A DNA stretch of 22,934 nucleotides from a virus. Positions 1,619 through 19,357 of this stretch are shown here, piece after piece. The first letter of the stretch is position 1, and each line of letters opens with the position of its first letter. Location: positions 1 to 22,934 of IMG/VR virus record IMGVR_UViG_3300017963_007667. One strand, 5' to 3'. The notes under the pieces were generated by a model. That model searched no databases. It was not told where the DNA came from and worked only from the letters and a program-made list of their open reading frames with translations. The position numbers and the translations under genes are program-made.

Positions 1619-2752
1619 CTAGGCGACGGTTCCGCTGGAGTAGTAACCGCCACGAAAATCAAACCAGTTGCCTTCCGTCGAGTCGACATAGGTCCCGAAC
1701 ACATCCATGACCTTGAGCACCACATTGCCGGTATCAAAGTCTCCCATCATCGGCTCAACCGCTGCACCCGCACCGAGCATTGAGGTTACAGCCTCGATGT
1801 CGGACTTTTTGCGGAAGATCTTTGGTCCTGCCCATCCCGACATGCGCGCCAGCACGAACGGACGGATGTTATTTTCTGTCCAGGCCGGGAACCCGTACCA
1901 AGGGAGGTTGGGCGCTGTGCCCGCCATGTAGGGGTCCTCGATGGGGGTGAAGTTCCTGGCGACGTTGACAGCATTGGTCGCCAGTTCAGGAACCAGTTCA
2001 CTGTTCAAGATCTGGAGGACCGTGTCTGCGAGGCCAGCGTGATGGACGATGTACCGCAGGGAGGCATTGATCGGCTCATTGCGGGCATCGACCCGCTGAT
2101 TGTAGGCCATCCGGGCCTCAGAGACTCGGGCCGAGGTCAAACGTCCGTTCTGGGAGTAGAGTGCACCCAGGCCGGTGAGTCGGGCGATCGATACGGCGTT
2201 GGTGTACATTCGGGAGACGAACTTTTCCAGGGTTCGGCGTGCGGCCTCACCCATTTGTCGGGCCGTGTCCTCAAAATAGCCCAGATCGTCGTTGCGAATG
2301 GCCTCCCAGGAAAAGTCAAACTGCTTCTCCCACCGAGAGACCCGATAGGACCGGGCGGTTGCGTCATCGACGGAGCCGGGACGCGCCTGTCCCTTTTCGC
2401 CCACCAGTTCCAGGTCATCAAGAGAGCCGCGATTCTGGTAACGGTCGTGCGGCAAAAAGTTGGTCAGTGTATCCATCCAGACCAGAGGCTCAAAGGCGAA
2501 AACCTTTTTCTCATAGCCGGGGATCGCCAGTCGGCTCACAAACGTCTGGATCGCGTTTGTAAAGTCTGCACTGGTCATGGTCTCCTGAAGCAGGAGGTTG
2601 TTGGTTCCGGTTGGTGACATGCCTGAGAGGTTGTGATCGATGTCCTCAAACAGGCCCTGGCATTCTGCCAGTCGTTCTGGAGTCGCCCCAGCGTCAGCGA
2701 GTTCGCCTTTCCAGGTCTCGCACATCGCTCGGAGCAGTTTCCTTGTGATCAT
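1619..2752 (-). CDS. Major capsid protein (HK97 fold)
   Basis: 377 aa; ATG preceded by AGGAGG six bases away. Residues 135-180 carry the signature region of HK97-type capsid proteins (SYRVSRWEKQFDFSWEAIRN followed by DDLGYF and an ARQMGEAARRTLEKF helix), which matches the spine-helix/E-loop area of many phage capsid proteins. The N-terminal about 75 residues are helical and may act as a delta domain removed by the protease encoded just upstream. This is inferred from gene order, because no cleavage site can be read. The C-terminal half has the mixed beta/alpha P-domain style (GFPAWTENNIRPF, ending in VLKVMDVFGTYVDSTEGNWFDF). Order protease/scaffold, decoration, capsid is the usual siphovirus head order and supports the call. 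Confidence 0.9.
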   Translation of the reverse strand: MITRKLLRAMCETWKGELADAGATPERLAECQGLFEDIDHNLSGMSPTGTNNLLLQETMTSADFTNAIQTFVSRLAIPGYEKKVFAFEPLVWMDTLTNFLPHDRYQNRGSLDDLELVGEKGQARPGSVDDATARSYRVSRWEKQFDFSWEAIRNDDLGYFEDTARQMGEAARRTLEKFVSRMYTNAVSIARLTGLGALYSQNGRLTSARVSEARMAYNQRVDARNEPINASLRYIVHHAGLADTVLQILNSELVPELATNAVNVARNFTPIEDPYMAGTAPNLPWYGFPAWTENNIRPFVLARMSGWAGPKIFRKKSDIEAVTSMLGAGAAVEPMMGDFDTGNVVLKVMDVFGTYVDSTEGNWFDFRGGYYSSGTVA

Positions 2753-2800
2753 GATGATCCTCCTATGATCTCTGTTCAGTAGGTCAGTACGCCCCGAGAT

Positions 2801-3400
2801 CTAGATGTCGCGGGTTGCGTTGGTCAAAACGATGCAGAATACCTGTTCTACCAGCGAGTTGGCCAGGGCCGTGTCGAACGTTGGTGCCTCGTTCGGGCCA
2901 CCGGCGAACGAGTCTCCCATTTCATCCTGGCAGTAGGTCAGGTAACCAGCCAGGGGGTTGTCGTCGCCGTTTTCGTTCAAGGGAGACATAGAGAGAGTCA
3001 CACCCTCCCCGATGTCATCTGAGTCATCGACATAGACCGGCTGTCCAGGCTGTGGGGTCTGCTCGAACGTAGCTGGCACCCCAGCCACATACGTCAAGAC
3101 GTTAGCGACATAGTCTCGGATGATCATGCCGGGGGCAATGTTGACCACGATAAAATCATAGTCTCCATTGATCGAGTTCTCTGCAACGGTATAGACAACG
3201 CCGGTGAGGAGTTGACCACGGAAAGCAGCGGTGCGTTCACCGATCGCCACCACTGGGTGATGACCGGGCTCCAATTCGTCCTTGGTTCCCGATCGGCTAT
3301 TGTCTGAGATGGGCCAAATGTCTTTTTCGTGAACGTTGAACGGGATCAGCGGCCCTGAACTCTGTTCCCAGTCTGTGCCTGTACGGAAAGTTGCTGGCAT
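2801..3400 (-). CDS. Putative capsid decoration / cement protein
   Basis: 199 aa. The start is ATG at 3400 with a TAGGAGGAATATCC leader (AGGAGG, seven-base spacing). The product is beta-rich and acidic, with no membrane segment. Residues about 60-110 (GQLLTGVVYTVAENSINGDYDFIVVNIAPGMIIRDYV) suggest a small barrel like those of cement proteins. It lies exactly between the protease/scaffold and the major capsid gene, the classic slot for lambda gpD-like or DUF2190-like decoration proteins. The assignment rests on position and general character, not on a diagnostic motif. It could also be another head-stabilising protein. Confidence 0.62.
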   Translation of the reverse strand: MPATFRTGTDWEQSSGPLIPFNVHEKDIWPISDNSRSGTKDELEPGHHPVVAIGERTAAFRGQLLTGVVYTVAENSINGDYDFIVVNIAPGMIIRDYVANVLTYVAGVPATFEQTPQPGQPVYVDDSDDIGEGVTLSMSPLNENGDDNPLAGYLTYCQDEMGDSFAGGPNEAPTFDTALANSLVEQVFCIVLTNATRDI

Positions 3401-11665: not shown

Positions 11666-12985
11666 CTAGTAGGATGGTCCTATTGCTGTTGATACGTCGA
11701 CAATCTGGCTTTTGGGTTGGGGAGAGGTCAGGAACGAGACGATGTAACGCAGGGCATCTAGCATGTGGTATGCCTCTTTGTTCTCGATCACGTTGGTGAA
11801 CTCTCCCGTTCGCTTGTTCTGTTTTCTCGCGTAGGCTCCGATCTCGGAGAGGAGAGCTACGCAGCAGTCATGGATGACGATACGGCCCTCTCGCAAGAGT
11901 TGTTGGACGCGGTCAATCTGCGTCCAGACCTCTGTGATCGGCGGCTCCTGGAGAGGGATGCCGGCTCCCGTAAAATCTACGCGCTGTTGCCGTTCTGAGG
12001 GACCGCCGCCGACCCAGGCATAGATGGGCTCGGCCCGGTTGGTCGGCACGCCCTTGGGACTGTAGCCAGATGCCTCCAGGATCTGGGCGACGTGTTTGGG
12101 AGTGGTTACGCCGAAAGGCTGTTCATACTCCCGGTAGACGTGGAGCGTTGCGCCGAGGGCGTCCCAGGCCAGCCAGACCGCGCCTATCTGCGCGCCGAAG
12201 GGATCTATGCCGACGAATCGAGGCCACATCTGGGGGATGGGGATCGCCTCGATCTTGTGCTTTTCGTCGTCGTACGCGGTATAGATTGCTCCCTCTGGGG
12301 ATGCCCACTGCCCCAGATAGAGACGCTTGTAGCGGTGCCCGGTCATGGAGGCGAGACGCCCCAATCGCTGGATGCCGGCCTCTGTCATCTCGCCCGTTGT
12401 CTGGTCAAACAGGGCCGGGTTGTCGCGGTGGGTTGTGTCGTAACGGGTCAGGGAGGGAGTGTCACCCTTGGACCGCTGCATGATCCAGTGAGTCGGCGGG
12501 CCGGGGTTACAGTCCCCGACGAGTTGGGTGTAGGGCATCGTGGCGCCGCGTCCGGTGACCATTCGGATCAGATACTCCCAGTCTGAGACGGTCAGTTCCT
12601 CTGCCTGGACGACATAGATTATGTCTCGCTCACCGGATAGGGTCTTGCCGGGATTGTCTAGGCCGCCGAGCCAGATACGGGCACCGTTGGGATAGTCGTA
12701 CCATTGGGGGATCTTGCCGCCGTAAGGCTCGACGTAGGGCGCGTAGGGCTCTAGGATGTCTCTTGTAAAAGTGCGAATGACTGTGCCGTGTATGTCGGAC
12801 TTGACCTTGCGGAGGATCGAGATCTGCGCGCCCGGGTACTTTGTGGCACACATGTGGATCTTGTAGAGGAGTGCGAGCGTCTTGCCAGTGTCGGCGGGTC
12901 CTGCTAGCATCACCTCGGGATCTCGGCATAGCATTCCTCTCTTGACGTTCCCGTAGAATGAGTACGGGAGGGAGATCGTCGGCAT
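11666..12985 (-). CDS. terL: Terminase large subunit (DNA-packaging ATPase/nuclease)
   Basis: 439 aa. The ATPase half has Walker A GPADTGKT (29-36, a slightly deviant loop) and Walker B-like IIYVVQAEE (122-130) with the catalytic Glu pair. A likely motif III area is TQLVGDCNPGPPTHWI (153-168). The linker carries LGQWASPEGAIYTAYDD (224-240), a hallmark of large terminases. The nuclease half has Asp261 in FVGIDPFGAQIGAVWLA and Asp410 in AYHMLDALRYIV, the expected metal-binding acids. With the small subunit and portal it forms the packaging motor that cuts and pumps DNA. The start follows the upstream stop by three bases with only a weak ribosome site, suggesting coupling. Confidence 0.92.
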   Translation of the reverse strand: MPTISLPYSFYGNVKRGMLCRDPEVMLAGPADTGKTLALLYKIHMCATKYPGAQISILRKVKSDIHGTVIRTFTRDILEPYAPYVEPYGGKIPQWYDYPNGARIWLGGLDNPGKTLSGERDIIYVVQAEELTVSDWEYLIRMVTGRGATMPYTQLVGDCNPGPPTHWIMQRSKGDTPSLTRYDTTHRDNPALFDQTTGEMTEAGIQRLGRLASMTGHRYKRLYLGQWASPEGAIYTAYDDEKHKIEAIPIPQMWPRFVGIDPFGAQIGAVWLAWDALGATLHVYREYEQPFGVTTPKHVAQILEASGYSPKGVPTNRAEPIYAWVGGGPSERQQRVDFTGAGIPLQEPPITEVWTQIDRVQQLLREGRIVIHDCCVALLSEIGAYARKQNKRTGEFTNVIENKEAYHMLDALRYIVSFLTSPQPKSQIVDVSTAIGPSY

Positions 12986-13498: not shown

Positions 13499-13791
13499 TT
13501 TGAGGTCTCCTTGTCGATTATGGCATAGCCTATCAGGAGGAATGGGATCGCCAGGAGATAGGGCCAGGACTCGATTGCAAGTTCCATTTGAGTCCAGGCG
13601 GGATGGAGCGCCCACCGGATCAGGAATCCGTAGACCAGGATGCAGACAGAGCAGATGAACAGGATCACTCCAAGTGTAAGCATTGGTAGATACCTTTTGT
13701 CTGAGGAGGTAAGAGAAACACCGTCAACATCAATGCGGCTAAGAAAGATCTGGCTGTTGGTGATCTGCACTCTTGGATCTTTTTCGTTCAT
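13495..13791 (-). CDS. Two-span membrane protein, holin-like in form
   Basis: 98 aa from ATG 13791, which overlaps the small-terminase stop (TGATG) with GGAGG seven bases upstream. A soluble N-terminus of about 35 residues is followed by a span LTLGVILFICSVCILVYGFLI, a short loop with Trp (RWALHPAWTQMELAIESW), a second span PYLLAIPFLLIGYAII and a charged tail DKETSK. Both ends are predicted on the same side. Size and topology resemble class II holins, but no endolysin is present nearby and holins are not normally placed between terminase subunits, so the role is open. Confidence 0.68.
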   Translation of the reverse strand: MNEKDPRVQITNSQIFLSRIDVDGVSLTSSDKRYLPMLTLGVILFICSVCILVYGFLIRWALHPAWTQMELAIESWPYLLAIPFLLIGYAIIDKETSK

Positions 13792-14372
13792 CAAAAATCC
13801 TCCGGTTCGACGTTGCCCGAGAGTCTGACGTCAAAGGACCCATCCTCCCCCGCCCCTTGGACTGTATGGAGGTCTCCGAGGCCGGTCGACTGGCGCTGTA
13901 GCTTGGAGGTCAGTTCCAGGGCACGCAACAGGGTTGACTCTTTGACGCCGACTGTGATGATCTCGCGCTCAGGCATACCGTCTTTGGCAGGGATAACGCG
14001 TCGCTCTGTCTTGACAAAGTTCTGGAGTTGATCCAGGGTAGAGTCAACAACGGCACGGAGCTTTTCGGCCATCTCATAGTCTGCCTGGAGCACGGCGGCG
14101 CGCCGTTCTGCCCAGAGAGCTTGTTCTGCCTCGCTTCGCTCGACCTCTTGTTGGGCGAATGCCTCTGCTAGTCGGGCTTGCCATGAGTGGGACTTTGACC
14201 AGCCTCTGATAGTTTGCTCGCTTTTTGTCGGGGGGATCTCTGGGCCTTCTGGGGCGTTTGTATAGGAGCGCCAGAGATCTCGGAGCTTGGCCCCCGGTCC
14301 CATTCTGTACAGGTCCATTAGAGCACGATGCGCTCTGCTCGTCTCGCCTTTTCGTCGTTCAAGGGGTTCCAT
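13791..14372 (-). CDS. terS: Terminase small subunit (probable)
   Basis: 193 aa; the ATG overlaps the mutase stop by 14 bases. The N-terminus looks like a helix-turn-helix (SRAHRALMDLYRMGPGAKLRDLWRSY, then SEQTIRGWSKSHSWQARLAEA); the pattern 'I..W....W..R' is common in phage small terminases that bind the packaging start site. A long Glu/Ala/Arg-rich helix follows (AEAFAQQEVERSEAEQALWAERRAAVLQAD), suited to the oligomer ring, and the C-terminus is acidic and Gly-rich, as expected for the part that contacts the large subunit. The position upstream of the large subunit supports this, although three small genes intervene. Confidence 0.75.
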   Translation of the reverse strand: MEPLERRKGETSRAHRALMDLYRMGPGAKLRDLWRSYTNAPEGPEIPPTKSEQTIRGWSKSHSWQARLAEAFAQQEVERSEAEQALWAERRAAVLQADYEMAEKLRAVVDSTLDQLQNFVKTERRVIPAKDGMPEREIITVGVKESTLLRALELTSKLQRQSTGLGDLHTVQGAGEDGSFDVRLSGNVEPEDF

Positions 14373-15486
14373 AGTGATCCACCATTACCTTTGCTATGTT
14401 CAGGGCGCGATAGATAGCCTCGTCCATGTCGATGTAGGCATAGCCGCCGAGCCGTCCACAGAACGTGACGTCTGGATCGTGGTTGTTCGCGTGGTCCAGG
14501 TATTGCTGGTATAGGTGCTGGTTACGGACGGTTGGAACAGGGTACTCAAAACGGGTTGGATCGTCGGGAGAGTAGGGATACTCGCGGGAGACGTATGTCC
14601 AACGCGTCGTGGCTCTTTTCTCTGGGGGGAGGAGCCAGCGCCACTCAGTGGTACGGATGTGTGCGCCTCCAGAGGGCAGCGGGTTATTGACCTGCACAGC
14701 GCCCTGGTAAGAGTCTACGCCGTCAGGGAGCAGGAGGGGATTATGCAGCCGCCGTTGTCCCCTGTACTCGAGTCGGCCCAGAGAGTAGTCGTAGAACTCG
14801 TCAATGGGACCGGTGTAGACCATGTGATCAAAAGACCAGTCCTCTTTGTTCATGAACTGTTGATAGGAGGCACCCAGGACACAGGGGACTCCCTCTAGCA
14901 TTTTGTGGACCATTTCATGGTAGCCGTTGGAGGGGATTCCGCGCCACTTCCGATCGACAAATGCGCGCTTTTCGTGCGGGTCGTCTCGGAGCGTGTAGCG
15001 GGAGCCGATACGCGGCAGTAGATCGGTCGCAGGGATGCCCCATTGCTTGAGATTGTAGGAGGCAATGAACAGATCATAGACTGGACGTGGGAGGTACTGT
15101 AGCCAGTACTCCTGTAGGGAGAGAGGTTCCCGATCTGAGGTCAGGAGATAGGCCAGTGGCGGCTCATGGCCAGGAGCCAGGGCCTCTACTGTGTACCGGT
15201 GCAGAGGCCAGGGATAGGTATTATCACCGAGGCGGGTCCGGATATAGTAGTCTACTTGCTGGAAGGTTGTGAAGCGGTGGCAGAACTGCCATACCTCTGG
15301 GTAGGAGGTCCGGAAGTAGTGCGGTCCTCCCAGGTGATAGGGTATGCCGGTAGTGGCGTCGACGTCGTCGGCACAGTGACCGCCCACGTATGGGAGCCGG
15401 TCAAGGACAAGACAGGGTATGTTGTGGTCAGTGAGCACTCGGGCCACTGTTGCGCCGGTCAGCCCAGCGCCGACAATCAGGATCAT
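14359..15486 (-). CDS. glf: UDP-galactopyranose mutase
   Basis: 375 aa, near the usual length. The enzyme is a flavoprotein that interconverts UDP-galactopyranose and UDP-galactofuranose. The sequence shows the FAD-binding GAGLTG (6-11) with an acidic residue ending strand 2 (LVLDR), GGHCAD (35-40), GPHYFRT, a YSLGRLEYRGQR active-site region, and GRLGGYAYIDMDEAI (344-358), the family's diagnostic C-terminal block with the conserved Arg. The ATG follows the upstream glycosyltransferase stop by two bases, so it is translated with it. A sugar-nucleotide enzyme paired with two glycosyltransferases suggests it makes their donor. Unusual in a phage head operon; likely transferred from a bacterial polysaccharide locus. 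A glycan target other than DNA is possible. Confidence 0.9.
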   Translation of the reverse strand: MILIVGAGLTGATVARVLTDHNIPCLVLDRLPYVGGHCADDVDATTGIPYHLGGPHYFRTSYPEVWQFCHRFTTFQQVDYYIRTRLGDNTYPWPLHRYTVEALAPGHEPPLAYLLTSDREPLSLQEYWLQYLPRPVYDLFIASYNLKQWGIPATDLLPRIGSRYTLRDDPHEKRAFVDRKWRGIPSNGYHEMVHKMLEGVPCVLGASYQQFMNKEDWSFDHMVYTGPIDEFYDYSLGRLEYRGQRRLHNPLLLPDGVDSYQGAVQVNNPLPSGGAHIRTTEWRWLLPPEKRATTRWTYVSREYPYSPDDPTRFEYPVPTVRNQHLYQQYLDHANNHDPDVTFCGRLGGYAYIDMDEAIYRALNIAKVMVDHYGTP

Positions 15487-15488
15487 GA

Positions 15489-16259
15489 CTAGGTCCCTGG
15501 TATGTTGATACGGACGAACGTGTTTAGGATGTTATTGCCTTTGGCTCCCTTACCACCCGCTGAGCCACCGGGACGGATGACCTTCGGGCCGTATCTGGCT
15601 ATGAGTCGGTCTATCGCGTCCAGTTCTCGCTTCATGGTGCGCATGGAGACTTGGCCTCCAGTGCCTTGCGCGTGCCGGTGATGGTAGTGGTACTTGTTGG
15701 CCCGTAGAGTGAACCGGTGACGGATGATCATACGGAGCCAAAAGTCATAGTCCTCCTTGAGGTCCAGGTACTCGTCAAAGCGGAGATCGTGATCGAGATG
15801 TCCGTGGAACGGGCCAAGGATGGGAGACAGAAGAGAGAACGGGCGGTAGGTGTAGTGGCCTAAAGGGTCCTGGTTCTGTTGAACGCCCCACATCTTGACG
15901 CCTAGTTGGTCGGCAAGGCAAAAGTGATGCTCGACAAATGCGCGCATGTGAGTGGGGTCCATTGGGATGTGCTCTCCGGACTCATAGTAGCACATGCGGG
16001 TTATGTCGTCATCCAGGATCAAGATCCAGGGACAGCCGGTCTCAGTGGGAGCGCGGTCCAGGATCGCGTTCTGCTTGCGGCACAGGTTTCCGTCGAGGTC
16101 GTCAGGGATCGAGATGATACGACCGGGATAGTTGGCCTCATAGTCTGCGGCCTGGGACTCGGGCACCCAGATGTAGGCAAAGGGAAACGCCTTGATCGTG
16201 GTCACGGAGTCGGGCCGCTTGTAGGATTTTATGGCTACGTGGATCTGAGAGTCTATCAT
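15489..16259 (-). CDS. GT-A glycosyltransferase, TAGT-like (copy 2 of tandem pair)
   Basis: 256 aa. It begins with a strand and phosphate-contact motif (IHVAIKSYKRPDSV, 6-19), then FAYIWVPESQAADYEANYP, IPDDLDGNLCRKQNAIL (51-67), a metal-binding acidic triad ILILDDDITR (Asp83-85), a GPFHGHLDHDLRFDEYLDLKEDYDFWLRMI region that matches the acceptor/base part of GT-A enzymes, and a His-rich YHYHHRHAQ segment. The look is that of the TET-associated glycosyltransferases of phages, proposed to glycosylate hydroxymethylated cytosines; I give that family from recollection of its style and from context, not from a search. It is a paralogue of the next gene upstream, and the mutase immediately downstream may supply its donor. 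Confidence 0.72.
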   Translation of the reverse strand: MIDSQIHVAIKSYKRPDSVTTIKAFPFAYIWVPESQAADYEANYPGRIISIPDDLDGNLCRKQNAILDRAPTETGCPWILILDDDITRMCYYESGEHIPMDPTHMRAFVEHHFCLADQLGVKMWGVQQNQDPLGHYTYRPFSLLSPILGPFHGHLDHDLRFDEYLDLKEDYDFWLRMIIRHRFTLRANKYHYHHRHAQGTGGQVSMRTMKRELDAIDRLIARYGPKVIRPGGSAGGKGAKGNNILNTFVRINIPGT

Positions 16260-16262
16260 GGG

Positions 16263-17021
16263 TCACTGTCCCGGGATGACGGTAGAGTTGATCGCGCCGT
16301 ACCTGCCGGCGCGTATGGGATCACGGAATATGGCAGGGCCGAATTGAGAGACCATACGCAGATGATCGGCACGCGCCAGGGCGAGAGTCTTGTCTATACC
16401 GCCCTCTACGTTGGCATCGCCTTTCTCGATTATGGCCTGATGATGGGCGAGAACGACCTTGTTGAACCGGAGCGTACGCCGGTAGGTGTAGATCTGGAGG
16501 AGCCACATGGCAATGTCGTCCATTGTACGGATCTCCTCGTCAAAGCGGAGAGAGTGGGAGAGATGACCGTACAGTGGGCCGTAGATGGGCTTGAGCAGGG
16601 AGAACGGCGTATAGGTCTGGTAGTAGAGTGGATCGTCATGGGTTCGCACACCCCAGAGATGGACGCCTAGCTCCTCAGCCAGTTGGAAGCAGTGGCAGAT
16701 CCAGAGCCGGAGGTCTGAGGGGGACAGGTCGTACTTTTCGCCGCCCTCATAGAGAGAGACGCGGGTAACGTCATCGTCCAGCATCAGGATCCAGGGAGAG
16801 GGGCAAAGATCGAGAACGGCGTTACGCTTGCGTGCGCAGGAGCCGTCCAGTTCGTCAGGGATGGACCGGACAGAGGAGCCATAGGAGGAGCGGTAGTCGG
16901 CCTCCTGAGACTCGCAGACCCAGATCGTGGCAAAAGGGAAAACGTCAAGAGTCTTGACGGACTTGGGCCGCCCGTATGAGATTATGGCGACGTGGATCTT
17001 GCCCGAGTCAATCAGATCCAT
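16263..17021 (-). CDS. GT-A glycosyltransferase, TAGT-like (copy 1 of tandem pair)
   Basis: 252 aa from ATG 17021, which overlaps the ParB-like stop by 14 bases and has GGAGG nine bases upstream. It shares with its neighbour IHVAIISYGRP, FPFATIWVCESQEADY, SIPDELDGSCARKRNAVL, ILMLDDDVTR (Asp82-84), YTPFSLLKPIYGPLYGHLSHSLRFDEE, and the final 'IPGQ/IPGT'. It differs at the presumed base region (TMDDIAMWLLQI against LKEDYDFWLRMI) and lacks the His-rich segment, which suggests a different donor or acceptor. Role: sugar transfer to phage DNA bases is the favoured idea from the ParB-like, mutase and terminase context; transfer to virion proteins is the main alternative. Confidence 0.72.
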   Translation of the reverse strand: MDLIDSGKIHVAIISYGRPKSVKTLDVFPFATIWVCESQEADYRSSYGSSVRSIPDELDGSCARKRNAVLDLCPSPWILMLDDDVTRVSLYEGGEKYDLSPSDLRLWICHCFQLAEELGVHLWGVRTHDDPLYYQTYTPFSLLKPIYGPLYGHLSHSLRFDEEIRTMDDIAMWLLQIYTYRRTLRFNKVVLAHHQAIIEKGDANVEGGIDKTLALARADHLRMVSQFGPAIFRDPIRAGRYGAINSTVIPGQ

Positions 17022-17829
17022 TCTTGGCAGCCTCCTTGGCAGCATCGATCACCGCGAACAGTCTGGAGGCAGGGAGGACGCGCCCGGTCCCCTTCTGCTT
17101 GATCGTCTTGCCTTTGACCGGGGCTGTGTAGACCTTTTCCAGGGAGAACAGTTCCTCGGCAACGTTCCAGTCTAGCTGGTTGTCAAAGTAGATCACGAGG
17201 TAGTCATGACGCTCCAGGAGCTCGGGAGAGATCTCCAGTTCAGGCGCGCCGGGATCGTCCTCATCGGGCTCTGGGTCTGGGTTCAGTTCTGCCAGGAGCG
17301 CATCGGCCTCCTCTGGGGAGAGTGAGACCGGCAGGACGTCGTCGTCTACAGCCTGTTGGATCAGCTTGGCGTATCCATCCGCGTCCCAGACCTGGGCCTG
17401 TTGTTCTGGAGTGAGACCGGTCATGGTCAAGTTGTTGGCGTCGATGGCATAAGCACGGGCCAGGGCGCGGGAGGCGGCATCTGTGCCGATGACCAGGGGC
17501 ATCGCCCATGGGCCGTTGTCTGGTTCTCGGGCGAGGCCGCGAGGGAGGTCTACGCCGCGCTTCTCTAGCTCGTCCAGGGCCTCGATCCGCCCGTTGCCCG
17601 ACTTGATCGCACCGGAGAGGCCGACCGTTACAGGCGTGAGGTTCTTGTCAAACTTGGGGAGATCTTGGAATCCGTGATCCCTGATCGACCGTTCGACCTT
17701 GGGGAGGTCGTGCCGCTTGGGATTGTCCACCCAGAGGTAACGCATCGCGTCTCTTACCCTGATCCATATCAGAGTCGGGGCATCGTTCATCTCTAGCGTG
17801 CTCTGGTCAAGGGTTGGCAGATCGGACAA
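17008..17829 (-). CDS. ParB/Srx-fold domain protein, first gene of the terminase-portal operon
   Basis: 273 aa. I choose the TTG at 17829 because a perfect AGGAGG lies five bases upstream; the next ATG (17790) has a poor site, and upstream codons would enter the leader hairpin and promoter. The ParB N-terminal fold is seen in VDNPKRHDLPKVERSIRDHGF (34-54), LTPVTVGLSGAIKSGNGRIEAL (64-85, with GNGR as the box II-like loop), and AYAIDANNLTM. An acidic Glu/Pro/Asp linker follows, then a C-terminal domain with HDYLVIYFDNQLDWNVAEEL. ParB-like proteins of this type occur with phage DNA-modification genes and adenine or cytosine methylases. Here it precedes two glycosyltransferases and a mutase. Function may be NTPase, nuclease or DNA binding. 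Confidence 0.75.
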   Translation of the reverse strand: MSDLPTLDQSTLEMNDAPTLIWIRVRDAMRYLWVDNPKRHDLPKVERSIRDHGFQDLPKFDKNLTPVTVGLSGAIKSGNGRIEALDELEKRGVDLPRGLAREPDNGPWAMPLVIGTDAASRALARAYAIDANNLTMTGLTPEQQAQVWDADGYAKLIQQAVDDDVLPVSLSPEEADALLAELNPDPEPDEDDPGAPELEISPELLERHDYLVIYFDNQLDWNVAEELFSLEKVYTAPVKGKTIKQKGTGRVLPASRLFAVIDAAKEAAKNGSD

Positions 17830-17850
17830 GATGACCTCCTGGTCAAGCTT

Positions 17851-17880
17851 GGCCCGAGGGCTGGGTAGGACCCTCGGGCC
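17851..17880 (-). promoter_or_regulatory. Perfect hairpin in the leader of the terminase-portal operon
   Basis: GGCCCGAGGG and CCCTCGGGCC form a perfect 10-bp stem around a 10-nt loop (RNA loop UCCUACCCAG on the minus strand). It lies between the promoter at 17923-17951 and the TTG start at 17829. There is no U-run after it, so it is not a simple terminator. It could stabilise the mRNA, hold a protein, or pair with another RNA (see findings). Confidence 0.78.
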
Positions 17881-17922
17881 GATACAAGGGAGAGTAGGAA
17901 CAATGGATCTGGGATCGTCTAC

Positions 17923-17951
17923 ATTGTACCATGAGCCGTGATCGTTGTCAA
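17923..17951 (-). promoter_or_regulatory. Sigma70-type promoter for the terminase-portal operon
   Basis: On the minus strand: -35 TTGACA (17951-17946), 17-bp spacer, -10 TACAAT (17928-17923) preceded by ATGG. Predicted start is near 17916, leaving a leader of about 87 nt with the hairpin at 17851-17880. Confidence 0.85.
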
Positions 17952-17953
17952 GG

Positions 17954-17980
17954 GGAATTATGGGAATTGTAGGAATTGTC
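17954..17980. repeat. Three tandem 9-bp repeats between divergent promoters
   Basis: GGAATTATG, GGAATTGTA and GGAATTGTC follow one another without gaps at 17954-17962, 17963-17971 and 17972-17980. They sit between the -35 boxes of the leftward late promoter (17946-17951) and the rightward early promoter (17992-17997), where an operator for a regulator would be expected. Confidence 0.7.
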
Positions 17981-17991
17981 CGAGAAAACGC

Positions 17992-18020
17992 TTGACAACG
18001 GAGTGGGATTATGGTACTAT
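17992..18020 (+). promoter_or_regulatory. Early promoter 1 (plus)
   Basis: TTGACA (17992-17997), 17-bp spacer, TACTAT (18015-18020), with ATGG before the -10 and CTTGACA shared with the other early promoters. It drives the unit 18068-19598, which ends at the terminator near 19645. Confidence 0.85.
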
Positions 18021-18025
18021 GTTGG

Positions 18026-18041
18026 TGACAGTGAGTTGATT
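18026..18041 (+). repeat. Early leader element, copy 1
   Basis: TGACAGTGAGTTGATT begins six bases after the -10 box, that is at or near the transcription start. It is identical to copies 2 and 3 downstream of the other two early promoters. Confidence 0.82.
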
Positions 18042-18067
18042 CTAGAGTTGATCTGAGGAGGATCAAA

Positions 18068-18760: not shown

Positions 18761-19357
18761 ATGGGAACGTACCGCAAGTGGGTAGCTCTGCACGGAAACA
18801 AGGATCGTTACAGTCGTATCATCAGCGTCGGCGCTGAGAACGTCGAGGCGGGCGTGGAGGAGATCAAGAGACAGCTCAACCGGCCTGGACGGTATGGGGC
18901 GTTTAGGGTCTGGCAGGAGAGTGGTTTCATGGTCCTGGACGAGAATGGGATCATCTCGACGGAGAAGGAGCGGATAGGGGACGGTGAGCCGATGCGCTAC
19001 CGGTACTATCTGGTCAACCGCCCTCCCTCGATAGGCTGTCAGCCAAAGGGGGACGTTGCTCGGGAGGTCTGGAGTCCGAGACGCAAGATGTCTGCACAGG
19101 GACGGTTGGTACATGGTTGGGTAGAGTATGACCAGCCGCTGAGCGCATACAACATCTGGAGCTATGAGCTCTTTCCCGCAAGCATTCAGGAACAGGCCCA
19201 AATGGTGTTTGTGGAGGGAGGCGAGTACAATTCCTCCCGGCACGAATACTGGTGCAGCCAGAACCTGAAGGATCTCAAGAGACTGTACAAAGAGATGGAC
19301 GACCAGAAGGCTTGGGCCGCGCTGGTCTTGCTGGGAGAGATCGACCAGCCTTTCTAG
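18761..19357 (+). CDS. Hypothetical early protein, 198 aa
   Basis: ATG with AGGAGG five bases upstream. The largest product of the first early unit: an N-terminal alpha/beta part (YRKWVALHGNKDRYSRIISVGAEN, EEIKRQLNRPGRYGAFRVW), then MRYRYYLVNRPPSIGCQPKG (about 77-96), a segment seen in small conserved phage and Firmicute proteins whose first strands read 'RYYLxxRPPxxGxxP', and finally YNIWSYELFPASIQEQAQMVFVEGG with a helical end. It has no catalytic motif I can assign. Single cysteines occur at 92 and near 163. Function unknown; I am confident it is a real gene. Confidence 0.78.
   Translation: MGTYRKWVALHGNKDRYSRIISVGAENVEAGVEEIKRQLNRPGRYGAFRVWQESGFMVLDENGIISTEKERIGDGEPMRYRYYLVNRPPSIGCQPKGDVAREVWSPRRKMSAQGRLVHGWVEYDQPLSAYNIWSYELFPASIQEQAQMVFVEGGEYNSSRHEYWCSQNLKDLKRLYKEMDDQKAWAALVLLGEIDQPF

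Follow-up and report, generated by a model that had tools for sequence, protein, structure and literature searches.

A phage operon of ParB-like, TAGT glycosyltransferase and UDP-galactopyranose mutase genes beside the terminase: a candidate DNA-glycosylation module

The window analyzed in this work is the whole 22,934-nt stretch of the IMG/VR record IMGVR_UViG_3300017963_007667. On its minus strand, a compact operon encodes a ParB-like protein (17008..17829, 273 aa), two TAGT glycosyltransferases (PF20691), GT2 (16263..17021, 252 aa) and GT1 (15489..16259, 256 aa), and a UDP-galactopyranose mutase (UGM; 14359..15486, 375 aa), and ends at the gene for the terminase small subunit TerS (13791..14372; phrog_6299, 5.2e-10). 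The terminase large subunit TerL is encoded on the same strand (11666..12985; phrog_2, 2.5e-22). The ParB-like and GT2 genes overlap by 14 nt, GT2 and GT1 are separated by 3 nt, GT1 and UGM by 2 nt, and the UGM stop overlaps TerS by 14 nt. These distances confirm the initial annotation, which had described four abutting or overlapping genes next to the small terminase. The TTG start assigned there to ParB (17829) has a good Shine-Dalgarno sequence (AGGAGG), and the most likely GT2 start, ATG at 17021, also has one, both as read by eye; a longer GT2 reading frame begins at 17045. IMGVR_UViG_3300028840_002618, a 64-kb record with a 144-base terminal repeat that is probably a complete phage genome, contains these genes at 99.9% nucleotide identity. 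This recurrence, together with the shared order of ParB and TAGT homologs in numerous other phages, excludes chance for the window genes. The 64-kb record also carries two putative non-C5 DNA methylases.

GT1 matches the TAGT profile PF20691 with 46.0 bits (cut-off 27.5) and GT2 with 28.0 bits, barely above this cut-off. Both match phrog_842, 'beta-glucosyl-HMC-alpha-glucosyltransferase' (9.7e-19 for GT1, 2.8e-13 for GT2), as does Ggt of phage T6 (PF20691, 35.8 bits; phrog_842, 5e-78). The TAGT-like nature of the transferases and the family number named in the initial annotation were both correct, and with both enzymes in PF20691 neither fell into a protein- or polysaccharide-directed family. 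TAGT identity extends to all 34 members of an alignment of the two window transferases and 32 viral homologs, the latter taken in at E-values up to 0.01. A TAGT set of 82 sequences (70 of the 78 loci from the first viral scan and 12 others) was reduced to 33 representatives at 70% identity; the eight loci left out comprise L008, a repeat of the window's gene, and seven for which a simple ORF caller gave no clustered transferase. The 78 loci include many near-copies. The acidic metal-binding DDD motif and D170 are present in all 33 representatives. GT2 keeps both, with D at the position of E169, which rules it out as a dead paralogue. In the tree it pairs with GT1 (support 97/86), has an end branch of 1.08 versus 0.37 for GT1, and by these sequence criteria is a diverged tandem duplicate of GT1. 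The predicted GT1 model (mean pLDDT 88.8) has a GT-A fold, and in the PDB it comes closest to GT-A type enzymes. This fold search did not point to an acceptor; the nearest structures, judged partly by their titles, are enzymes acting on lipids, glycans, teichoic acid or protein. A PDB sequence search with GT1 gave no meaningful match.

The mutase assignment was likewise upheld: UGM scores 125.6 bits against PF03275 (cut-off 26.3), and it matches solved UGMs over nearly its whole length, the best being 3gf4 (residues 2-369 of 375, E 4.2e-43). Seven active-site residues (Y155, W160, R174, R280, Y314, Y349 and D351) are all conserved, and Y185 is replaced by F; numbering is of the K. pneumoniae type, counted by hand on the alignment from the 3gf4 search.

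The Pfam search of window proteins assigned no family to ParB or TerS. The longer ParB reading frame (17008-18066) matches phrog_620 (2.6e-6), and the AlphaFold model of the window protein (mean pLDDT 77.2, pTM 0.58) matches the ParB-N domain of pNOB8 (5k5d, E 5.3e-4). The N-terminal ParB/Srx-type core is followed by a C-terminal domain of ~80 aa (Y..F.N..DW...L...GRV) that an alignment of 31 ParBs shows to be common to TAGT-linked ParBs. Among 12 tested phage ParBs, the N-terminal model matches all and the C-terminal model only those of Javan291 and Piperis; in the tree, the transferases of these two cluster with those of the window. ParBs of the other TAGT clade have a different common C-terminus, as seen by eye from their tails and less clearly in Porphyromonas. 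The ParB C-terminal type matches the TAGT clade across the two main clades. In HCTV-2 gp11 (ParB_N plus N6_N4_Mtase) a ParB core forms a single protein with a DNA methylase, and the DNA methyltransferase profile phrog_498 has phage ParB matches in its first part. A plasmid-partition ParB was ruled out: no ParA family was found (22 Pfam families in 36 proteins of the 64-kb record), and an actin-like protein is present instead (ALP_N, 72.5 bits).

Many viruses that are not related to one another share the ParB-TAGT pair, and common E. coli prophages are among them. Altogether, 89 of 92 viral loci have ParB upstream of TAGT; the contigs of the other three begin at the transferase. Of the 78 loci in the first viral scan, 74 have ParB no more than 700 nt upstream of the transferase, the four exceptions being these three contigs and the relative of this phage (ParB-GT2-GT1); the second scan found ParB in 14/14 new loci. 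Six ParB queries were used, four of them taken from the loci themselves. The ParB-like protein is a genuine partner of the transferase, and the pair is near-obligate. Across the 78 loci, one ParB cluster covers 71, and the largest TerL cluster covers 44 and lies two genes downstream in 38 of these. A separate neighbor scan covered 108 of 158 listed proteins, with 25 of its 59 families among the matches listed.

The pair usually stands beside the terminase. For instance, ParB, TAGT and then terminase genes are found in Lactobacillus phages c5 and jlb1, a Porphyromonas phage, E. coli 611R4 and Javan291. Nocardia NTR1 shows this arrangement too, with orf1 identified as ParB-like from its similarity to the E. 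coli protein. In HHTV-2, TerL is ~3 kb downstream of the pair; in one locus (L079) the terminase lies upstream, and in Piperis at the opposite end of the linear map. Phages T6 and Vibrio pv27 have TAGTs without an adjacent ParB, and the pv27 enzyme falls inside a ParB-linked clade. In Piperis, consecutive genes encode ParB, a transferase and an incomplete UDP-glucose dehydrogenase, another instance of a sugar-nucleotide gene joined to the pair; the Piperis transferase belongs to the family only weakly (4.9e-4 against phrog_842 and no match in Pfam). Streptococcal IPP66 and Javan254 were rejected as additional cases, their ParB being fused to DUF4417.

Carrier hosts include Lactobacillus, Streptococcus, Porphyromonas, Nocardia, Microbacterium, E. 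coli and Haloarcula. Rac-type E. coli prophages carry the pair, and its segment was matched in 1572 of 5426 complete E. coli genomes, 885 of them over at least 80% of the segment. The ynaK gene of E. coli ECCHD184 is 100% identical at the DNA level to a 263-codon reading frame of phage 611R4 over the whole query; it is annotated as incomplete. Scans of genome contigs with two alignments returned pattern matches and no relatives.

Our preferred reading, to which we give an even chance, is a ParB-guided phage DNA-glycosylation module, extended in this phage by UGM and a duplicated TAGT. The ParB-like protein would bind phage DNA via its ParB core and recruit the TAGT via the transferase-specific C-terminal domain; the transferase would then add a hexose to the phage DNA, either ahead of packaging or while it proceeds, shielding the genome from host nucleases. 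With the transferase gene duplicated and the mutase added, a galactofuranose-bearing adduct would be the most likely product, possibly a disaccharide with one sugar per transferase. We infer DNA as the substrate, ParB as the targeting subunit, UDP-Galf or another UDP-furanose as the donor and protection as the purpose. A bolder and rather improbable extension is that ParB-TAGT pairs glycosylate phage DNA directly, without C5 hydroxylation or hydroxymethylation, with a ring atom, exocyclic atom or terminal hydroxyl chosen by ParB. If true, this would be a DNA chemistry of its own in tailed viruses of bacteria and archaea and in E. coli prophages, with galactofuranose used in the window phage's version.

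It is unlikely that the TAGT pair and UDP-Galf modify a phage protein (ParB itself, a terminase subunit, the portal or the capsid), with ParB as substrate or scaffold. The genes stand at the head of a string of packaging and head genes, no base-hydroxylating enzyme was found in the 64-kb record or 50 sampled records, and the nearest GT-A structures include enzymes that glycosylate protein hydroxyls, such as LH3 and COLGALT1, with query TM-scores of only 0.36-0.49. However, T6 Ggt, the closest functionally known relative, is a TAGT member with DNA specificity, according to the available part of PMC13216743. The fusion of the ParB core to a DNA methylase also argues against a protein target, as does the retention of ParB-TAGT while terminases vary (71 versus 44 of 78 loci for the respective clusters).

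A further alternative, to which we assign a low probability, is that an unrecognized phage or host enzyme first hydroxylates or hydroxymethylates the base and the TAGTs then add sugars, in line with the initial annotation. The T-even TAGTs work in this way (PMC13216743, in the part available). The initial annotation had placed the genes in a TET/methylase context; that part of its reading was not supported, whereas its TAGT, ParB and UGM assignments stood. Tet_JBP (a profile without positive control), Thymidylat_synt and the C5 methylase family DNA_methylase (PF00145) were all absent from the 64-kb record, so a TET/methylase pathway was rejected for this phage. Among 59 predicted proteins of this record no dioxygenase family appears (22 + 6 families found), and the scanned proteins include no alpha/beta-GT family. 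As far as profiles tell, the genome has no recognizable cytosine-hydroxylating enzyme, an outcome named beforehand as counting against hypermodification. Among 50 sampled TAGT-type records, many of them fragments, Tet_JBP (again without positive control) and Thymidylat_synt were each found in none and a C5 methylase in four. These records are those of 49 of the 78 loci, two of which (L017 and L028) are cut before any ParB, plus Javan291; the rest, near-duplicates for the most part, fell outside a sample capped at 50. The TET and thymidylate-synthase profiles could miss divergent enzymes, but Thymidylat_synt does find the T6 dCMP hydroxymethylase (56 bits) and yet finds none in all eight named ParB-transferase records, one partial. 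A shared host hydroxylase is also unlikely because the carriers infect hosts from Lactobacillus to Haloarcula.

Within the DNA-glycosylation reading, UGM plausibly makes the furanose supply, and galactofuranose may be the sugar on phage DNA. The mutase is an add-on, linked to the transferases by position. Six neighborhoods were inspected among 85 phage records matching UGM. In three rhizobial or agrobacterial phages the gene is near an amidase, and in Aeromonas Aes012 and Erwinia FBB1 it follows a MotA-type gene; the Aeromonas and Erwinia neighbors were discarded as uninformative, their families not being recognized. In Lactobacillus phage ATCCB, UGM lies next to a T4-type glucosyltransferase homolog (PF09198, 78 bits) in a cluster with a thymidylate-synthase homolog (PF00303, 96 bits), which supports UGM as a DNA-sugar gene. 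It is doubtful that UGM acts apart from the transferases, its UDP-Galf going into a surface glycan that changes a receptor or decorates the virion, with its operon place due to chance: five of the six neighborhoods lack a recognizable DNA glycosyltransferase and UGM was found in 1 of 71 searched records of the window transferase type, but here both it and the duplicate transferase lie within the ParB-TAGT-Ter string, 2 nt separating it from GT1, 59 other predicted proteins of the 64-kb record include no further glycosyltransferase family, and the ATCCB mutase adjoins a DNA glucosyltransferase homolog.

The ParB-TAGT pair probably sugar-coats viral DNA. Solitary TAGTs gain a near-invariant ParB partner, a clade-matched ParB domain and a usual place beside the terminase. 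Both the window and ATCCB hint that phage DNA may bear furanose sugars. Carriers that are easy to work with include the lactobacillus phages c5 and jlb1 as well as the Rac-type prophages of E. coli.

Literature searches found no paper on UGM with phage hydroxymethylcytosine, on ParB, glycosyltransferase and terminase in phage base modification, on a Microbacterium phage ParB-like nuclease with a glycosyltransferase, or on a phage with ParB, JBP and a glycosyltransferase. A paper found for ParB, glycosyltransferase and hydroxymethyl phage DNA modification concerns, in its accessible part, another topic than the ParB-TAGT pair, and the accessible part of a galactofuranose/phage DNA-modification paper that names a UGM gene has no DNA-bound galactofuranose. 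TET/JBP-TAGT loci of phages reportedly contain TAGTs with ParB proteins nearby. They share TAGT and ParB with the system described here, in which the 64-kb record has no TET/JBP or C5 methylase. Co-occurrence of ParB and TAGT may already have been described there (Iyer et al. 2013; Burke et al. 2021). Neither ParB nor glycosyltransferase appears in the accessible main text of PMC8651126.

The T-even sugar system (dCMP hydroxymethylase, alpha/beta-GT, T2/T6 Ggt) has the TAGT family in common with the window; however, hydroxymethylase and alpha/beta-GT were not found here, and a ParB partner, terminase linkage, a duplicated TAGT and UGM are present instead. According to the available part of a recent survey, 288 of 753 phage genomes have TAGT and neither alpha- nor beta-GT, and such solitary TAGTs are possible novel transferases without a known role (NAR 2026 gkag531, PMC13216743). 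Those linked to ParB probably make up much of this group. The word ParB is absent from the accessible main text of that survey, to which our analysis adds the ParB partner, its clade-matched C-terminus and the terminase position. The ParB-methylase fusions such as HCTV-2 gp11 have a homologous ParB core, but here the modifying enzyme is a glycosyltransferase with a gene of its own, not a methylase joined to ParB. In the ATCCB cluster, whose genes a term search did not find named in the main text of its description (PMC6563214), UGM adjoins a DNA-glycosyltransferase gene as in the window, but the enzyme is of the T4 type, a thymidylate-synthase homolog is present and the 9 kb shown include no annotated ParB. 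Mosigvirus/RB69 arabinosyl-hydroxycytosine, as presented in the available part of PMC13390438, involves sugar-nucleotide genes and two putative sequential transferases that place mono- or disaccharides on DNA, with the base made by a thymidylate-synthase-family 5-hydroxy-dCMP synthase. The window resembles this system in combining sugar-nucleotide gene and two transferases, and differs from it in the base synthase and other pathway genes.

The window is a single virus record of 22,934 bases. The four-gene arrangement described in the initial annotation holds: genes for a ParB-like protein (17829-17008), two glycosyltransferases, GT2 (17021-16263) and GT1 (16259-15489), and a UDP-galactopyranose mutase (UGM, 15486-14359) all lie on the minus strand with tight junctions, and are followed on that strand by the small terminase gene TerS (14372-13791) and then by that of the large terminase TerL. 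The junctions from ParB to TerS are -14, +3, +2 and -14 nt in this order. The ParB-like protein and the terminases were named by PHROGs, UGM matched its Pfam family at 125.6 bits, and the starts of the ParB and GT2 genes were picked by their Shine-Dalgarno sequences. As had been suspected, both transferases belong to the TAGT family (PF20691), scoring 46.0 bits (GT1) and 28.0 bits (GT2) above a cut-off of 27.5 bits; PHROGs labels both as beta-glucosyl-HMC-alpha-glucosyltransferase. Judged from sequence and gene context, the most likely function of the operon is ParB-guided glycosylation of phage DNA, with galactofuranose supply in the window phage.

The association of ParB with the transferase extends across viral loci. 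The query alignment combined GT1, GT2 and their Javan291 homologue; with it, a scan of viral contigs yielded 78 loci. In 74 of them the transferase has a ParB no more than 700 nt upstream; the four exceptions are the window phage's relative, in which ParB precedes two transferases, and three contigs that start at the transferase. Of 20 loci returned by a further scan, which used a closer alignment, 14 had not been in the first set, and each of these 14 has ParB upstream. Both scans together place ParB upstream in 89 of 92 loci, which are not independent and include many near-copies. PF20691 is matched by all 34 transferases of an alignment comprising the window's two and 32 viral homologues. 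A single TerL cluster is present in 44 loci of the first set, two genes downstream in 38 of these, and one locus (L079) has its terminase upstream instead of downstream. Another locus (L125) carries two ParB-like stretches (1794-1985 and 2667-3275) upstream of a single transferase.

Among named carriers, the order ParB, transferase, terminase genes was found in the Streptococcus prophage Javan291, Lactobacillus c5 and jlb1, E. coli phage vB_EcoS-611R4 and a Porphyromonas gingivalis phage. Nocardia NTR1 orf1 shares 32% identity with the ParB of E. coli and is located upstream of TAGT and TerL, and ParB adjoins TAGT in the archaeal virus HHTV-2, with TerL ~3 kb further on. Microbacterium phage Piperis combines ParB, a transferase (phrog_842 match of only 4.9e-4, no Pfam family matched) and a partial UDP-glucose dehydrogenase, and has its terminase genes at the opposite end of the linear map. 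The dehydrogenase annotated after its ParB and transferase genes (Piperis locus L088:7346-8128) is 260 aa long, and its activity appears doubtful because the match above cut-off is limited to the family's central domain. ParB of the E. coli carriers is ynaK of Rac-type prophages; the ParB-TAGT segment was matched in 1572 of 5426 complete E. coli genomes, in 885 over at least 80% of its length. Rac of K-12 MG1655 (L098:6378-6981) has only a short ynaK of 87 codons overlapping ydaY; TAGT and terminase genes, which are annotated in the Rac-type prophage of strain ECCHD184, have no annotated counterpart there. No hydroxylase, thymidylate synthase or methylase is annotated in the ECCHD184 prophage itself, several genes of which are hypothetical.

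TAGTs separate into two main groups in the tree. The first contains c5, HHTV-2, E. coli, Nocardia, jlb1, Porphyromonas and Vibrio phage pv27; the second holds the window, the viral loci and Piperis, and T6 joins it on a long branch. A model built on the N-terminal part of window-type ParB matches all 12 tested phage ParBs, including one methylase fusion and two DUF4417 fusions, while the C-terminal model matches only those of Javan291 and Piperis, the transferases of which fall in the window's group. A different C-terminus is common to ParBs of the other group (by comparison for Nocardia and E. coli, by eye for the rest, and less clearly for Porphyromonas). When the C-terminal domain of ParB from viral locus L012 was used in tblastn, Javan291 was the sole match among 50,697 phage records and Piperis was missed; the whole Javan291 ParB matched 548 records, and 49 of the 50 matches listed are confined to at most 113 N-terminal residues. 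Of these 49, 21 carry methylase or methyltransferase annotations, although such names can be wrong. Such a pattern would be expected of a ParB core that delivers different enzymes to DNA, with a C-terminus particular to each enzyme. In Streptococcus phages IPP66 (L091:3492-4586) and Javan254 (L092:3492-4589), the same ParB core, fused to DUF4417, lies directly upstream of the terminase genes, possibly representing another ParB-linked enzyme class.

Among the TRANSFERASES, DDD and D170 are invariant across 33 representatives. GT1 and GT2 are sisters in the tree (support 97/86) and GT2 has the longer branch, which suggests a duplication followed by a specificity change. The GT1 model has a GT-A fold (mean pLDDT 88.8), and its best PDB matches act on widely differing acceptors, so the fold gives no substrate.

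Almost all of UGM can be aligned with solved enzymes. By hand count on the alignment to 3gf4, residues at 155, 160, 174, 280, 314, 349 and 351 are conserved and F replaces Y at 185, all of them positions with roles in the active site. The galactofuranose proposed initially is still a plausible candidate. UGMs accept UDP-arabinose in vitro, and arabinofuranose is therefore a possible alternative sugar. UGM occurs in one of 71 searched records having a window-type transferase, some of which are fragments. Apart from the UGM of Lactobacillus phage ATCCB, five phage UGMs were inspected out of the 85 records that match; they have amidases or MotA-type genes nearby, so UGM by itself is no proof of DNA modification. 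One of the five phages, Atu_ph04, is described (PMC6630229) as having a deoxycytidylate hydroxymethyltransferase gene at another place in the genome.

The UGM scan of viral contigs found only one other record, IMGVR_UViG_3300028840_002618 (64,290 bases), which is 99.95% identical to the window across 18.6 kb and 99.92% across 4.9 kb and, given its 144-base direct terminal repeat, is probably a complete circular genome. The TET-type pathway proposed initially is unsupported, as family searches of this record gave no Tet_JBP, Thymidylat_synt or DNA_methylase (PF00145) match. No dioxygenase family was among the 22 and 6 Pfam families matched in scans covering 36 and 23 of its predicted proteins. 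It does encode two putative non-C5 DNA methylases: a Dam-like one, which scored 24.9 bits, under the Pfam cut-off of 28.1 (the best phrog_111 match within the protein set was 3.5e-23), and one that matched a PHROG DNA-methyltransferase at 2.5e-19. The same genome encodes an actin-like partition-type protein (L006:4805-5803; ALP_N 72.5 bits, MreB-like_C 49.9 bits) and, with its terminal repeat, may be maintained as a phage-plasmid. It also encodes a PAPS-reductase family protein (L006:11088-11867, 85.4 bits); such proteins occur frequently in phages, with roles in DNA modification or defence. Divergent from the window operon, a DarA_C domain protein (18761-19357, plus strand; PF18789, 6.6e-14), DarA_C being the C-terminal part of P1 'defence against restriction A', is a possible second anti-restriction function.

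Regarding known systems, a ParB link to TAGTs may already be contained in Iyer 2013. Solitary TAGTs are already described in a published account (PMC13216743). TAGTs without an adjacent ParB were observed in T6 and Vibrio phage pv27, both of which have Thymidylat_synt matches, including the dCMP hydroxymethylase in T6; the search that detected these found none in eight ParB-transferase records, one of them a partial genome. In Lactobacillus phage ATCCB (MK504445), a weakly kinase-like gene, a thymidylate synthase homologue, a T4-type beta-glucosyltransferase (PF09198) and UGM lie in a row (L111:1522-5086); a term search of its published description found no mention of the last three genes. ATCCB offers an independent precedent for UGM in a putative DNA-sugar setting, and this cultured phage is predicted to have furanosyl-pyrimidine DNA.
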